Source of the DNA: Gemmatimonadota bacterium
Lineage (GTDB): Bacteria; Gemmatimonadota; Gemmatimonadetes; Gemmatimonadales; Gemmatimonadaceae
Direction: 5' to 3'
Assembly (NCBI GenBank): GCA_021413975.1
Contig: JAIOPJ010000054.1
Span: 124,001-188,000, forward strand
Length of the DNA: 64,000 nt
Of this stretch, positions 1,092 to 7,782 are shown in pieces (position 1 is the stretch's first letter; every line of letters starts with the position of its first letter). Made by a program: the position numbers and the translations under genes. A model generated the notes under the pieces. That model had not been told where the DNA came from. It saw only the letters and a list, made by a program, of their open reading frames with translations, and ran no database searches.

Positions 1092-2420
1092 CTACGCCGT
1101 TGCGCGCGCCTCGGCAAGGCTCGCCTCCAGGATCGTCATCGCCTCGTCCACATCCGAGCGCGTGATCAACAGCGGCGGCATGAACCGCACCGTGCTCGCC
1201 CCGCACGAGAGCAGGATCAGTCCGTTGTGGTAGGCGCGGGTGACGAGGTCGTCGCAGAGCTTCCGCGCGGGCGTCTTGTCCCCGGCGCCATTCACGAGCT
1301 CCATCCCGATCATGAGCCCGCGCCCGCGCACCTCGCCGATGCTCGGCTCCCGCGTCTGCCACTCGCGGAGCCGCGCCATGAAGTAGTCACCCACCGCGGC
1401 GGCATTCGCCATGTACCCGTGCTCCACCAGGTCGAGCGTCGCGATCGCCGCTGCGCAGCAGACGGGATTGCCGCCATAGGTGTTGCCGTGCGCGCCGCGC
1501 TTCCACAGCTCCATGTGCTTCTTCTTGGCCACCACGAGCCCGATCGGCATGCCGCTGCCGAGTCCCTTGGCGAGGCACATGATGTCGGGGACGACGCCCA
1601 CGTGATGCGCGGCGAACATCTTGCCCGTACGCCCCACGCCCGACTGCACCTCGTCGAAGATCAGCATGATGCCGTGCCGATCGCAGAGGGCGCGCAGGCC
1701 CTGCAGGAAGCCATCGGGCGGCACCACGTAGCCACCCTCGCCCTGGATCGGCTCGATGAGGATCCCCGCGACCTCCTTGGCCGGCACGTTGTGCGTGAAG
1801 AGGACGTTCTCGATGTAGTCGAGCACCGCCTTCCCCTGGTCGTCACCGGCGAAGATCGGCCGGTAGTTGTTGGGGTAGGGCACATGCGTCACGCCGGGCA
1901 TGGTGGGGAAGAAGCCCGCCTGCTGGGTGTACTTGCTGCTCGTGAACGCGAGCGATCCCATGGTGCGGCCGTGGAAACCGCCCAGGAAGCCGATGAAGCG
2001 CGAACGGCCGGTGACGTAGCGGGCGAGCTTGAGTGCGCCTTCGACCGACTCGGTGCCGCTCTGGCACATGAAGCTCAGCACGGGCTCGTCGCCCATGGGC
2101 TTCACCTCGGCGATGCGTTCACCCAGGCGCACCTGCTTCTCGTGCCAGTAGTCGCTCGAGATGTGGAGGAAGCCCTGCGCGGCGTCGGTGATCGCCTTCA
2201 CGACCGCGGGATGCGAGTGGCCGGTGGAGCAGACGGCGATGCCGGCCGCGAAGTCGAGGAAGCGGTTGCCGTCGACGTCCCAGACCTCGGCGCCCTTGCC
2301 GTGCGACATGGCGAAGGGGTAGTCGCGCGGGTAGGAGGGTGAGACGACCTTCGCGTCGCGGGCGATGAGGGCGACGGCGTTGGGGCCGGGGAGGGGGGTG
2401 CGGATGTGTGGGGACTTCAT
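1092..2420 (-). CDS. Class-III PLP aminotransferase (GABA/acetylornithine aminotransferase family)
   Basis: Motifs LIFDEVQSGVGRTGKMFA and CLAKGLGSGMPIG; 442 aa; 4-nt overlap with upstream gene. Confidence 0.92.
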   Translation of the reverse strand: MKSPHIRTPLPGPNAVALIARDAKVVSPSYPRDYPFAMSHGKGAEVWDVDGNRFLDFAAGIAVCSTGHSHPAVVKAITDAAQGFLHISSDYWHEKQVRLGERIAEVKPMGDEPVLSFMCQSGTESVEGALKLARYVTGRSRFIGFLGGFHGRTMGSLAFTSSKYTQQAGFFPTMPGVTHVPYPNNYRPIFAGDDQGKAVLDYIENVLFTHNVPAKEVAGILIEPIQGEGGYVVPPDGFLQGLRALCDRHGIMLIFDEVQSGVGRTGKMFAAHHVGVVPDIMCLAKGLGSGMPIGLVVAKKKHMELWKRGAHGNTYGGNPVCCAAAIATLDLVEHGYMANAAAVGDYFMARLREWQTREPSIGEVRGRGLMIGMELVNGAGDKTPARKLCDDLVTRAYHNGLILLSCGASTVRFMPPLLITRSDVDEAMTILEASLAEARATA

Positions 2421-3175
2421 GTGACACCTTGGTTGGGCAGCGTGATCCGAACGCGAGCCGCATGCGCACGCGTGGTGCGTGCGTGCAGATCGCGGAGTAC
2501 AAGTAGTTCATCGGCCGTCGGCGGCGCGATCGTGGCAAGCGCAGCCGCCACGCGCAGCGGCCACCCACACGCCGCCCGCACCTGCTCGACCGCCACCCCC
2601 TCGTACAGCGCCACGAGCACCATCTCCCGGGTGGTGACTTCAGGCTCCAACACCCCGAGATCCGTGATGATCGCACTCGGCCGCCCCGCACTCGTGGTGA
2701 AGTCGAGCTTGGGAACGAACGTCCGCGCCGACTGCTTCATCACCACGAACACCTCGCGCGCCTGCGACGCGATCTCGGGCGCCCCGCCCGACCCGGGCAG
2801 TCGCACCGCGGGGTGCGCATACTCCCCGATCACGGTGCTGTTGAGGTTCCCGAACCGGTCCACCTGCGCCGCCCCCAGGAACCCCACATCCACGCGCCCG
2901 CGCTGCAGGTAGTGCGTGAAGATCTCCGGCAGGGGGATCACGCTGCGCGCCGTCTCCGCCAGCTCGCCGTCGCCGATCGAGAGCGGCAGCACGTTCGGTC
3001 GCGTCCCCACCGTGCCCGACTCATAGATGAGCACCAGGTCGGGCGCATGGGTGAGCCGAGCGAGATTGCACGCCGCGCTCGGCAGGCCGATCCCCACGAA
3101 GCAGACCGCACCGTTCTTCAATCGCCGCGAGGCGGCGATCGTCATCATCTCGTCGGGGGTGTAGTCCGCGCTCAC
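2417..3175 (-). CDS. CoA-transferase subunit beta (GctB/Type I CoA-transferase family)
   Basis: MSADYTPDEMMTIAASRRLKNGAVCFVGIGLPSAACNLARLTHAPDLVLIYESGTVG; GTG start at 3175 in a GTGA overlap with subunit A. Confidence 0.88.
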   Translation of the reverse strand: MSADYTPDEMMTIAASRRLKNGAVCFVGIGLPSAACNLARLTHAPDLVLIYESGTVGTRPNVLPLSIGDGELAETARSVIPLPEIFTHYLQRGRVDVGFLGAAQVDRFGNLNSTVIGEYAHPAVRLPGSGGAPEIASQAREVFVVMKQSARTFVPKLDFTTSAGRPSAIITDLGVLEPEVTTREMVLVALYEGVAVEQVRAACGWPLRVAAALATIAPPTADELLVLRDLHARTTRAHAARVRITLPNQGVT

Positions 3176-4026
3176 TCTGTCGCCCCGACGCTGCGGAGGA
3201 ACCCCGCGTGATCCGCGGTCCCGAGCACATGCCGCTCCATCCAGGCCAGGAACGTGTCGCGCGACCGCGCGATCTCGTCCCACGCCAGGTAGAACGCATT
3301 GTCGCGCGCATAGTGCCCCAGCGCGTACGAGGGATACGCGCCCCCCGGCACCTCGGCGATCGCCGCCACCTGCCAGCCGGGGATCACGAACGCGTTCATG
3401 GGCGCGTCGATGGAGTCGACGATCCTCTCGACGGTGACCACGAGCGTGCGCGCCGCCATCGCCGCCTCGCGGCTTGCGCCCACGATCCCGCGAAGCAACA
3501 CATTGCCCTCGCGGTCGGCGGCCTGCGCGTGTAGCACCGTCACGTCGGGGGTAATCGCCGGCAGCGCCGTGAGCACCTCGCCCGTGAAAGGGCAGGTGAC
3601 CTGCGAGATGCGGGCGGGGTTGGCCGCGGGCAGGTCGGTACCGGTGTAGCCGCGCAGCACCCCGAACGGCAAACCGCTGGCACCAGCCGAGTAGCGCACG
3701 GCCATGCCGGCATGACTGTGCTCATCGATCGCCAGGGCGTGCGGCCAGGCGTGCTCGATCGCGTCGCGGAGCCGGTGCAGCGACCCCACTCCCGGATTGC
3801 CGCCCCAGGAGAAGGTGAGCGCCTTCGCGCAGCCCATCCCGATCATCTGGTCGTAGATCAGGTCGGGCGTCATGCGCACGAGCGTGAGGTCGCGGCGGCG
3901 CTGGCGGATGATCTCGTGACCGGCGGCGAACGGGATGAGATGCGTGAAGCCCTCCAGCGCGACCGTCATGCCGTCCTGCACATGCCGCGCGATGACGTCG
4001 CGCAGCGGCATCACCTGCGTGCTCAT
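3172..4026 (-). CDS. CoA-transferase subunit alpha (GctA-like)
   Basis: MTVALEGFTHLIPFAAGHEIIRQRRRDLTLVRMTPDLIYDQMIG...; paired with subunit beta. Confidence 0.88.
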   Translation of the reverse strand: MSTQVMPLRDVIARHVQDGMTVALEGFTHLIPFAAGHEIIRQRRRDLTLVRMTPDLIYDQMIGMGCAKALTFSWGGNPGVGSLHRLRDAIEHAWPHALAIDEHSHAGMAVRYSAGASGLPFGVLRGYTGTDLPAANPARISQVTCPFTGEVLTALPAITPDVTVLHAQAADREGNVLLRGIVGASREAAMAARTLVVTVERIVDSIDAPMNAFVIPGWQVAAIAEVPGGAYPSYALGHYARDNAFYLAWDEIARSRDTFLAWMERHVLGTADHAGFLRSVGATE

Positions 4027-5573
4027 GGCGTGACCGGATCCGCGTCCACGCGGAGATAGCGCGCGAGATACCCGTGCAGCACGGGCGCTTCGTCGGCGGC
4101 GTACTCGTCGGCGCGGAGCGACGCGGGCATGGACGACCAGGCGCTGGTGGCGTCGATCGGTGCGAACGGGTCGGCACGCTCCATCGCGCCGGCGAGCGCG
4201 CGCGCGAATCGTGCGCCTTCGTCGGCAGTCCCATGCACCGGCACGCGGGAGGTGCGGCTGAGGCCCCTCACCATGCCGATCGCGCCCTCAGGGGTGCGGT
4301 ACCGCCGCAGCATGAGCAACGGCAGGAGCAGCTCGCGTCCCCAGCAGGGATGCCCGTCCCGCGCGACCTCGGCCAGGGTGGGCGCCACGAAGTGGCCGGC
4401 GCCCCGCCCATGGTCGCTCAGCGTCTCGCCGCCGAAGTGCACGTGGGCGCCCTGTTCGTGCAGCTGATGCGCCACCTGGCGGTAGTGGCCGTGATCGTCC
4501 GCCGACACGAGCGGACCGATCTCCGTCTCCGCGAGCCGGGGATCGCCGACGCGCAACGCGCTCGCGATCGACCCGAGGCGCGCGATCAGCGCGTCGGCGA
4601 CCTCGTGATGGACGATGAGGTACGACGGTGCGTCCGGTCGCTGCCCGGTGAGCCCGAATGCGGCACGCGCGATGCTCGCCGCAGCGGCACTGACGTCGGC
4701 GTGCGCGGTGACGATCCGGGCCGACTTCGCCGTGAACTCGGCGATGCAGGGCCGCGGCGGGTGCGACGTCCACATCATCTGCGAGAGCGGGCGACCCGCC
4801 GACCGCGCACCGGTGAAGGTGGAACCGGCCACGCGGACGTCATCGAACATCGCGGTGCCCATGTCCTTGGGCGCGCCCGAGATCAGGTTGAACACGCCGG
4901 CAGGGATGCCGGCGTCGCGGATCATCTCGGCGAAGATGCGCGCCGCCCACGAGTTCTCCTCCGCCGACTTGAGCACCACGGTGTTCCCCGCGAGCAGTGC
5001 CGCTGCCGCGGGGGCCGCGCCGCACGCGAGCGGGTGGTGGAACGGCGCGAAGACCGTCCATGCGCCATGCGCGACCATCCGCGAATCGGTGCTGGCGCGA
5101 CCGGCACGCCCGGCGACGAATCCGTGGGTCGCCCACTCGTCGCAATAGTTCGAGATGAGCTCGGTCGTGCCCCACACCTCGCGCAGGGCCTCATGGCGCG
5201 TCTTGCCCGCCTCGAGCGTGAGGATGGCCGCGAGCTCGTAGGTCCGCGCCTCCAACTGCTCCAGCACCCTTCGCAGCACGCCGCGCCGGTCCGATTCCGA
5301 CGTTTCGGACCAGGCGAGCGCTGCCGCCTGCGCCGCACTGATCGCCAGTCCCACCTCGATCTCGGTCGCCGCGGCGAAGTGGCCGAGCACGAGGCCGCGG
5401 TCGGTCGGCGAGTGCTGCGTGCGGAGTCGGCGCGCGCCGAGGTCGTCGCCGCCGATCAGGAGGCCATAGCTCGCCCCCAGTCGCGGCCGGAGGTCGGCGA
5501 GCGCGGCCTCGAACCGCGCGTGGTCGGAGGCACGCAGCGGGGTGAGGGTGGGATCGGCCGCGGGACTCGTCAC
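4023..5573 (-). CDS. Aldehyde-dehydrogenase-fold protein, predicted catalytically inactive
   Basis: ALDH scaffold LLAGNTVVLKSAEENSWAARIFAEMIRDAGIPAGVFNLISGAP recognisable, but GQKCS is GQRPD and WNFP is FHHP. GTG start at 5573 inferred from GTGA overlap. Confidence 0.85.
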   Translation of the reverse strand: MTSPAADPTLTPLRASDHARFEAALADLRPRLGASYGLLIGGDDLGARRLRTQHSPTDRGLVLGHFAAATEIEVGLAISAAQAAALAWSETSESDRRGVLRRVLEQLEARTYELAAILTLEAGKTRHEALREVWGTTELISNYCDEWATHGFVAGRAGRASTDSRMVAHGAWTVFAPFHHPLACGAAPAAAALLAGNTVVLKSAEENSWAARIFAEMIRDAGIPAGVFNLISGAPKDMGTAMFDDVRVAGSTFTGARSAGRPLSQMMWTSHPPRPCIAEFTAKSARIVTAHADVSAAAASIARAAFGLTGQRPDAPSYLIVHHEVADALIARLGSIASALRVGDPRLAETEIGPLVSADDHGHYRQVAHQLHEQGAHVHFGGETLSDHGRGAGHFVAPTLAEVARDGHPCWGRELLLPLLMLRRYRTPEGAIGMVRGLSRTSRVPVHGTADEGARFARALAGAMERADPFAPIDATSAWSSMPASLRADEYAADEAPVLHGYLARYLRVDADPVTP

Positions 5574-6919
5574 GAAGCGCCTCGGGCAGCGGGGAAGTGC
5601 TTCGCGAGGAGTCGGTCGAGCAGGGCGAGCGAGCCGACGAGATCGGGTTCGGTGATCACGAGCGGAGGCGCCAGCAGGAGCAGATTCCCGCGCGTCGCGA
5701 ACGAGACGCCCGCCTGCAGACCGTCGCGCACGAGCGCGCCCAGCGCCGGTGGCGTGCCCGGCCACTCCGACAGCGGCGCGCGCGTCCCACGATCGGCGAC
5801 GAGCTCGAGCACCGCGAAGAGACCGTGCCCGCCGCGCACATCGCCGATCACGTCATGCCGCTCCTGCATCTCCCGCAGCAGGTCGAGCATCACCCCGCCG
5901 AGCCGTCGCGACTGCGCGATCAGGTCTCCGCTCGCGTATGCCTCGACCGCCGCGACGCCGGCGGCGCAGGAGAGCGGATGACCGCAGTAAGTGAGTCCGG
6001 TGTGGAGCATCTCGTGCTCGAACCGTTGCGCGACCTCCGCCGAGAGCACCACGGCACCGAGCGGCAGGTGTGCTCCGGTCAACCCTTTGGCGAGCGTCAT
6101 GACGTCGGGCCGGCCCGCCTCGCCATGGCGCTGCCAGGCGAACCACTCACCGCACCGGCCGAACCCGCTCATCACCTCGTCGGCGATCAGCAGCGTTCCC
6201 GCGCGCCGCGTGACCTCGCGCAGCGCGGGCCAGTAGCTGTCTGGAGGCACGATGCCATTGGTGCCCGAATCGACCTCCATGAGCACCGCCGCCACCTCGT
6301 GCGCCCCCTCGCGCGCGATCAGCTGCTCCACGTGCTCGGCGGCGCGCAGGCCGCACTCGGCGTCGGTGCCGGGCCCGAAGGGCGAACGGTACGCGTACGG
6401 CGGCAAGGCGTGGATCACCCGCTGCGCCGTGGGGTCCGAGGCCGCACGGGTGCGCGTGTCGCCCGAGTACGCCATGGTCGCGTAGCTGGCGCCGTGGTAC
6501 GACCGGTCGCGCGCGATCACGAGTCCACGCGCCCGCCCCTGCGCCTGCCGCGCGAACTTGACCGCGTGCTCGTTGGCATCGGCGCCCCCGAGCGTGAAGA
6601 AGACGCGCCCGCCGGTGAAGCCGCTCTTCTCCAGCAGGAGCTCGGCGAGACGGGCGCGCGGCTCCGACCCCCAGGCGTTCGCGATGTAGCAGAGCCGGTC
6701 GGCCTGCGCCTTGATCGCGTTCACCACGGCCGGATGCTGATGCCCGAGATTGCAGCACTCGGACTGGCTCGACATGTCGAGGAAGCGCCGTCCGTCGGCG
6801 GTGAAGAAGTACGCCCCCTCGCCGCCGACCACGGTCGGGGCATCCCAGCGGTCCTGCACGGTCCAGCTGTGCAGGACCGTCTCCTTCTCGGTGAGGTGGG
6901 CGCTCGTACGGGCACTCAT
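5570..6919 (-). CDS. Class-III aminotransferase (omega-amino acid/taurine-pyruvate type)
   Basis: LLIADEVMSGFGRCGEWFAWQ, LAKGLTGAHLPLGAVV; ATG at 6919 chosen because downstream homology begins MSARTSAHLTEKETVLHSWTVQ. Confidence 0.9.
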   Translation of the reverse strand: MSARTSAHLTEKETVLHSWTVQDRWDAPTVVGGEGAYFFTADGRRFLDMSSQSECCNLGHQHPAVVNAIKAQADRLCYIANAWGSEPRARLAELLLEKSGFTGGRVFFTLGGADANEHAVKFARQAQGRARGLVIARDRSYHGASYATMAYSGDTRTRAASDPTAQRVIHALPPYAYRSPFGPGTDAECGLRAAEHVEQLIAREGAHEVAAVLMEVDSGTNGIVPPDSYWPALREVTRRAGTLLIADEVMSGFGRCGEWFAWQRHGEAGRPDVMTLAKGLTGAHLPLGAVVLSAEVAQRFEHEMLHTGLTYCGHPLSCAAGVAAVEAYASGDLIAQSRRLGGVMLDLLREMQERHDVIGDVRGGHGLFAVLELVADRGTRAPLSEWPGTPPALGALVRDGLQAGVSFATRGNLLLLAPPLVITEPDLVGSLALLDRLLAKHFPAARGAS

Positions 6920-6990
6920 GGAGCGGAATATACGGTCCCTGCCGCCGCGCGCATTGCGTGCCCTCGCAGGGTCGGCCACCTTTCGCCGAC

Positions 6991-7782
6991 ATGTCACCCG
7001 TTGCCGCTCCGACCGCGACGTACCGCGCACTCACGCGCGCGATCTCGCCCCGCATCGTGGAGTGCGAGCTCACGCACCTCGAGCGGCTCCCGATCGATGT
7101 TCCGAACGCGCGCGCACAGCACGCCGCGTACGCGCGCGCGCTCGTTTCGCTCGGGTGCGCCGTGGAAGAGGTGGAGCCGGCGCCCGATCATCCGGACTCG
7201 GTCTTCATCGAGGACACGGCGGTGGTGCTCGACGAGATCGCGGTGATCACGCGTCCCGGCGCCGAGTCGCGGCGCGGCGAGACGGCGGCCGTGGAGCGCG
7301 TGCTCGCGCCGCTCCGACCGCTGGCGCACATCAGGGCGCCGGGGACGCTCGACGGCGGGGATGTGTTCGTCGTCGGCAAGCGCGTCTTCGCCGGGCGCAC
7401 CGGCCGCACCAATGACGAGGGGATCGCGCAGTTGCGCGCCGCGCTCGCGCCGCACGGTTACACGGTCGAGGCGATCGACGTGACGGGCTGCCTGCACCTG
7501 AAGACCGCGGTGACGGCGGTGGACGACCGGACCGTGCTGGCGAATCCGCAGTGGATCGACCTCCGGGCGCTCGCCGGAGTGGATGTCATCGAGGTCGACC
7601 CCGCGGAACCGATGGGCGCCAACATCGTGCGCGTGGGCGAGGCGCTGCTCTATGGCGCGTCGTATCCGCGAACGCGCGCCCGGCTCGAGGCGCGCGGCCA
7701 TCGGCCCGTGTGCGTCGACGCGTCGGAACTCGCCAAGGCCGAAGGGGCCGTGACCTGCTGCTCGCTGGTCCTGCGCGCTTGA
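6991..7782 (+). CDS. ddaH: N(G),N(G)-dimethylarginine dimethylaminohydrolase / amidinotransferase-fold hydrolase
   Basis: DSVFIEDTAVV, GTLDGGDVFVVGKRVFAGRTGRTN, GCLHLKTAVTAV, GANIVRVGEALLY; C-terminal catalytic-type Cys in EGAVTCCSLVLRA. Confidence 0.88.
   Translation: MSPVAAPTATYRALTRAISPRIVECELTHLERLPIDVPNARAQHAAYARALVSLGCAVEEVEPAPDHPDSVFIEDTAVVLDEIAVITRPGAESRRGETAAVERVLAPLRPLAHIRAPGTLDGGDVFVVGKRVFAGRTGRTNDEGIAQLRAALAPHGYTVEAIDVTGCLHLKTAVTAVDDRTVLANPQWIDLRALAGVDVIEVDPAEPMGANIVRVGEALLYGASYPRTRARLEARGHRPVCVDASELAKAEGAVTCCSLVLRA

Follow-up and report, generated by a model that had tools for sequence, protein, structure and literature searches.

Within the window analysed here, a stretch of 64,000 nucleotides from a Gemmatimonadota genome, an operon of aminotransferase and CoA-transferase genes includes a gene for an aldehyde dehydrogenase (ALDH)-like protein in which the catalytic nucleophile is replaced. 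Has this protein been recruited to another task, or is it the remnant of an enzyme that is being lost? A preliminary description of the sequence had predicted a dead ALDH in an intact, translationally coupled reading frame and had proposed for it either a repurposed pseudoenzyme or a different chemistry. The reading frame, its strand and all the motifs quoted in that description were found in the sequence, and the prediction of a dead ALDH in such a frame is supported: the Cys-less state recurs in orthologs, and the coding sequence is still under purifying selection.

The ALDH-like gene and its active site

The coding sequence (4023..5573, minus strand) starts with GTG and encodes 516 amino acids, as identified from Pfam, the translation, AlphaFold2 and fold matches. 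A single Pfam family was found, Aldedh (PF00171), with 257.4 bits against a gathering score of 23, and the AlphaFold2 model (pLDDT 81.5, pTM 0.85) shows the ALDH fold with good confidence along most of the chain; both sequence and fold place the protein in the ALDH superfamily. The nearest folds are P5CDH/RocA and the ALDH domain of PutA, with a TM-score of 0.8 to P5CDH structures. The best NCBIfam models are likewise of the P5CDH type and lie far under their cut-offs, with 198.8 of 648 bits for NF002852 and 181.7 of 659.65 bits for TIGR01237, which leaves the protein outside the P5CDH/GSALDH families as curated. P5CDH-type models are again the top-scoring ones for an intact ortholog (L010, 378 of 648 bits). 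Because these scores fall far below the curated cut-offs, the models assign a type without establishing a substrate. ALDH16 proteins carry two ALDH domains per chain; the 516 residues of the window protein form one. A two-ALDH-domain protein of the bacterial ALDH16-like kind is encoded elsewhere in the same genome (L004, G000:C1:168132-170306), its first domain with a Cys (GQVCCAGS) and its second apparently degenerate.

In the ALDH mechanism, the catalytic Cys forms a thiohemiacetal. In the window protein, the loop that carries this Cys in competent enzymes, G(Q/N)xCS, reads GQRPDA (GGG CAG CGA CCG GAC GCA, 4646..4629, minus strand), with Pro313 (codon CCG, 4635..4637) at the Cys position, and the oxyanion-hole motif P(W/F)NFP reads PFHHP (5045..5031, minus strand), with His179 (codon CAC, 5037..5039) at the Asn position. 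In the HMMER alignment with GsPutA (4nm9), 'gqrpda' falls on GQKCSA and 'pfhhpl' on PWNFPL. Pro313 and His179 thus align to the Cys and Asn of solved ALDHs, as the preliminary description had proposed from the letters GQRPD and PFHHPLA, and the alignment to ALDH structures places no other Cys at the nucleophile position. The protein has four Cys residues (144, 184, 276 and 410), none of them in the catalytic loop; a relocated nucleophile was rejected, the loop being Cys-free and Cys276 occurring also in intact orthologs. A sequencing or frameshift artefact was rejected too, given that Pro and His recur at these sites in an independent genome of the genus, G006 (L009), whose reading frame is likewise intact.

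Other active-site residues survive in the window copy, including the two Glu residues reported earlier: the general base Glu279 (codon GAG, 4737..4739) within CIAEFTAK, and Glu414 (GAG, 4332..4334) of the E(I/M/L)FxP motif within GRELLLP, together with the cofactor-site Lys202 (AAG, 4968..4970) within LLAGNTVVLKSAEE, all on the minus strand. Further erosion had escaped the preliminary description. The cofactor motif FTGSxxxG has become FTGARSAG (4794..4817, minus strand), with Ser replaced by Ala, GGK has become TAK, and nearly all family-conserved positions are gone from the C-terminal 70 residues. Oxidation of aldehydes through the ALDH mechanism is almost certainly beyond this protein. By its sequence it is a pseudoenzyme, with its catalytic residues lost and its reading frame kept by selection, albeit relaxed.

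A Cys-free active site might nevertheless use the remaining Glu and Lys for different chemistry, for example as a hydrolase, a lyase or an imine-forming site, and the presence of Lys202, Glu279 and Glu414 speaks for this. Against it, G006 has Gln in place of Glu279 and Asp in place of Glu414, the FTGS motif is eroded in both copies with Pro, and no pocket residue was gained and conserved beyond the shared Pro and His. Since the two copies are degenerating at different sites, a new chemistry seems highly improbable.

The operon and its variation across the genus

The ALDH gene belongs to a series on the minus strand with short overlaps, in the order AT1, ALDH, CoA-transferase subunit A (CoAA), CoA-transferase subunit B (CoAB) and AT2. 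AT1 (5570..6919; start codon uncertain, with a longer reading frame from 7030) is a PRK06062-like class III aminotransferase, CoAA (3172..4026) is of the glutaconate CoA-transferase type, CoAB (2417..3199) retains the Glu nucleophile motif YESG, and AT2 (1092..2420) is a class III aminotransferase above the PRK05769 cut-off; both aminotransferases retain the PLP Lys. The overlap of the ALDH frame with its neighbours, from which translational coupling had been proposed, is present at both ends and measures 4 nt (5570-5573 and 4023-4026). A dimethylargininase-like (DDAH) gene (6958..7782, plus strand) is divergent from the operon and is a constant neighbour of the locus across the genus. The PLP Lys and the CoA-transferase Glu of the partner enzymes are also preserved in G011, a genome discussed below. 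Among the more distant relatives whose neighbourhoods were read, most carry the same set arranged as aminotransferase-ALDH-AT2-CoAA-CoAB, and their ALDH is intact.

A PcaR/PcaU-family IclR regulator is located between the DDAH gene and the operon in G003, G007, G010 and G016 (L033 7994-8866, L064 2409-3380, also L034 and L036; the two scanned exceed the TIGR02431 cut-off), which suggests an oxo-acid or dicarboxylate as end product. It is absent at the locus in the window, G006 and G011, and this loss fits a rewired pathway in their clade. A route from beta-lysine to 3-oxoadipate, with two aminotransferases, an ALDH, a CoA-transferase and a PcaR-type regulator, was considered for the operon; lysine 2,3-aminomutase (TIGR03820) was found in none of the 17 genomes of the genus, and for this reason the substrate was not assigned to that route. 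Gene content varies in other respects as well. An OYE/mycofactocin-system-like flavoprotein lies 3' of AT2 in G010, G007 and G003 (L033 13504-15591; L034, L063) and is absent from that position in the window. AT1 is missing in G010 despite an intact ALDH (L033), and in related families its position is occupied by another class III aminotransferase, of about 30-35% identity; AT1 seems to have been exchanged independently of the state of the ALDH.

The ALDH gene occurs in six of the 17 genomes and in three states. It is intact in G010 and G007 (PFNFP and GQKCS; the G007 copy was read across two contig ends). In G003 and G016 the loop reads GQKHS, with His for Cys, and FTGS, GGK and the C-terminal GWKGSG motif are altered. 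The window and G006 share GQRP and PFHHP, with Pro for Cys. Outside the genus the Cys is kept in 34 of 34 orthologs read, which together with G007 and G010 makes 36 genomes, and all four Cys-less orthologs fall inside the genus. A scan of genome contigs recovered distant relatives only.

In the closest operon-bearing relative of the window, G011, whose operon proteins are 83-92% identical to those of the window, the ALDH gene is gone and the remaining operon is kept, with CoAA directly after AT1. Its AT1 ends in SATP-stop and the window ALDH in PVTP-stop; that is, the G011 AT1 finishes in frame on the last codons of the window ALDH, and its stop overlaps the CoAA start in precisely the way seen for the ALDH stop of the window. 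Such a junction is the signature of an in-frame excision of about 1.5 kb. As G006 branches outside the pair formed by the window and G011, yet has the same Pro and His, loss of catalysis before deletion is the simplest order of events. AU tests on the ALDH and on the concatenated partners did not separate a single from a double loss of the Cys.

The His-type ALDH of G016 occurs at the locus without aminotransferase and CoA-transferase partners, which could be elsewhere in this 83% complete genome. In place of the CoA-transferase genes, the next gene encodes an APC basic amino acid/polyamine antiporter (L064 4961-6322), and the same antiporter is found after AT2 in G003.

Rates of change and the fate of the gene

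Between the window and G006, the ALDH proteins are 51% identical, versus 75-85% for AT1, CoAA, CoAB and AT2, and in the intact pair G007-G010 the values are 86% for ALDH versus 81-88% for the partners. The ML distance between the window and G006 is 1.105 for ALDH versus 0.21-0.50 for its operon partners, a rate about 2-5 times theirs in the Pro type. Pairwise codon ML for the same two genomes gave a dN of 0.373 for ALDH, 0.193 for DDAH, 0.161 for AT1, 0.130 for CoAB and 0.089 for both CoAA and AT2. The omega of ALDH is 0.119 (likelihood-ratio statistic of 148 versus omega = 1) and that of the partners 0.02-0.04 where dS was estimable; with dS saturated (about 3) and the Pro-type lineage sampled by two genomes, these pairwise values are approximate, comparative rather than calibrated. 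By segment, omega is 0.10-0.15 in the three main segments (residues 1-445) and reaches 0.18 in the last 70 residues. GC by codon position is normal and no stops occur, while neutral simulation to 45-54% identity produced about 3-6 stops (P(no stop) <= about 0.05). A neutral pseudogene is disfavoured by omega and by the stop simulation. The window ALDH is thus under relaxed but real purifying selection, which sets it apart from normal enzyme genes and from neutral pseudogenes alike.

The same selection bears on the idea that the reading frame is kept solely because its translation links AT1 with the CoA-transferase genes, and that its product is inert. The 4-nt overlaps at both ends would suit such a translation spacer, as would the direct overlap of the AT1 stop with the CoAA start in G011 after removal of the ALDH. 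However, purifying selection at the amino-acid level (omega well under 1 over residues 1-445) exceeds what upkeep of an open frame calls for, and a 1.5-kb spacer is readily removed, as happened in G011; a spacer is accordingly improbable.

Degeneration is broad. Among 171 outgroup-conserved positions, defined on intact enzymes, G010 keeps 147, G003 128, G016 118, the window 82 and G006 77. In the Pro type, the catalytic loop and the FTGS cofactor motif are among the losses, and so is nearly every C-terminal position, those around GAWPGxQPFGGWKGSG included. The disordered C-terminus of the AlphaFold2 model was not taken as strong evidence of decay, as the model of a His-type control (L011) also has low confidence at residues 480-505 and the feature is not diagnostic.

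Could the protein be a stable non-catalytic subunit of an aminotransferase complex, with a scaffold, substrate-binding or regulatory role for which it is selected? The intact reading frame, an omega of about 0.10-0.15 in each of the three main segments and the identical Pro and His in two species argue for it, as do the intact-like rate of the His-type copies relative to DDAH and the precedent of ALDH16A1, an ALDH that is non-catalytic and has roles in protein binding (PMC10650815). Set against these are the deletion of the gene in G011, where the other operon genes are kept, the rate of 2-5 times that of the partners, the retention of about half of the family-conserved positions, with C-terminal ones nearly all lost, and the different ways in which the window and G006 copies degenerate. 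Such a subunit is doubtful for the window gene, and the proposal of a repurposed pseudoenzyme or a different chemistry was not borne out for this copy.

The His type behaves differently. ALDH/DDAH distances are 0.335/0.429 for G003-G016 and 0.177/0.241 for the intact pair, a similar ratio, and in the His type a long stem branch precedes this intact-like rate. It is possible, if only tentatively so, that the His-for-Cys orthologs, and perhaps the Pro type of the window, are repurposed ALDHs, with fast change at the loss of the nucleophile followed, in the His type, by enzyme-like constraint. The position of the G016 gene, without operon partners and with a PcaR-type regulator and an amino-acid antiporter as neighbours, would then suggest a role in sensing, in binding or in a new catalysis. 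The His type is a more credible candidate for a stable new role than the window gene, and a conserved repurposed clade is likelier for G003 and G016 than for the window gene.

For the window copy, decommissioning is the rather probable course: a dead, still-translatable ALDH with a weak, dispensable remaining role. This is favoured over a newly essential scaffold because a sister genome dropped the gene and because its degeneration is wide-ranging as well as uneven. The ancestor would have been a working P5CDH-type ALDH of an aminotransferase/CoA-transferase operon. In this genus the need for ALDH catalysis may have lapsed, after which, in the ancestor of the window and G006, the nucleophile would have changed to Pro and the oxyanion-hole Asn to His, followed by erosion of cofactor and C-terminal motifs. 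The Rossmann/catalytic core presumably still folds and may serve a weak non-catalytic role, either accessory or binding beside the aminotransferases or just in keeping the coupled operon translated; this role would be dispensable, given that G011 keeps the operon without the ALDH. Any remaining oxidation step might be carried out by another ALDH or be bypassed. Two observations count against decommissioning. For a gene being lost, omega is low at 0.12, which argues for a real remaining function, and decay is incomplete, the window copy having kept Lys202, Glu279 and Glu414.

Significance and relation to known systems

In one genus, the same operon gene is found intact, with Cys changed to His, with Cys changed to Pro, and deleted, and the partner genes provide an internal clock. 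The series makes two questions testable: what a metabolic enzyme is still kept for once its catalysis is gone, and whether a pseudoenzyme is an end point or a step on the way to loss. It also has a practical side: automated annotation would label the gene an aldehyde dehydrogenase, adding a pathway step that is probably absent. A search of open-licence PMC texts returned nothing on this operon and no example of a bacterial catabolic operon in which one genus spans the steps from intact gene to deletion.

Among known systems, P5CDH (L-glutamate gamma-semialdehyde dehydrogenase; RocA and the PutA ALDH domain) provides the best NCBIfam, PDB-sequence and fold matches to the window ALDH, which differs from it in lacking the nucleophile Cys and the oxyanion-hole Asn and in scoring below the curated cut-offs. 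Long PutA proteins carry a Cys-less C-terminal domain of the ALDH superfamily, a non-catalytic module for assembly or channelling; that domain is part of a fusion protein, whereas the window ALDH is a free-standing gene. Human ALDH16A1 is an ALDH pseudoenzyme without catalytic residues (PMC10650815), and the window protein resembles it in having the ALDH fold without them. Unlike ALDH16A1, the window protein is single-domain, of the P5CDH type, encoded in a bacterial operon and in possession of the general-base Glu. ALDH pseudoenzymes were thus already known from ALDH16A1, and what would be new here, going by the open-licence texts searched, is the graded series within a single genus.
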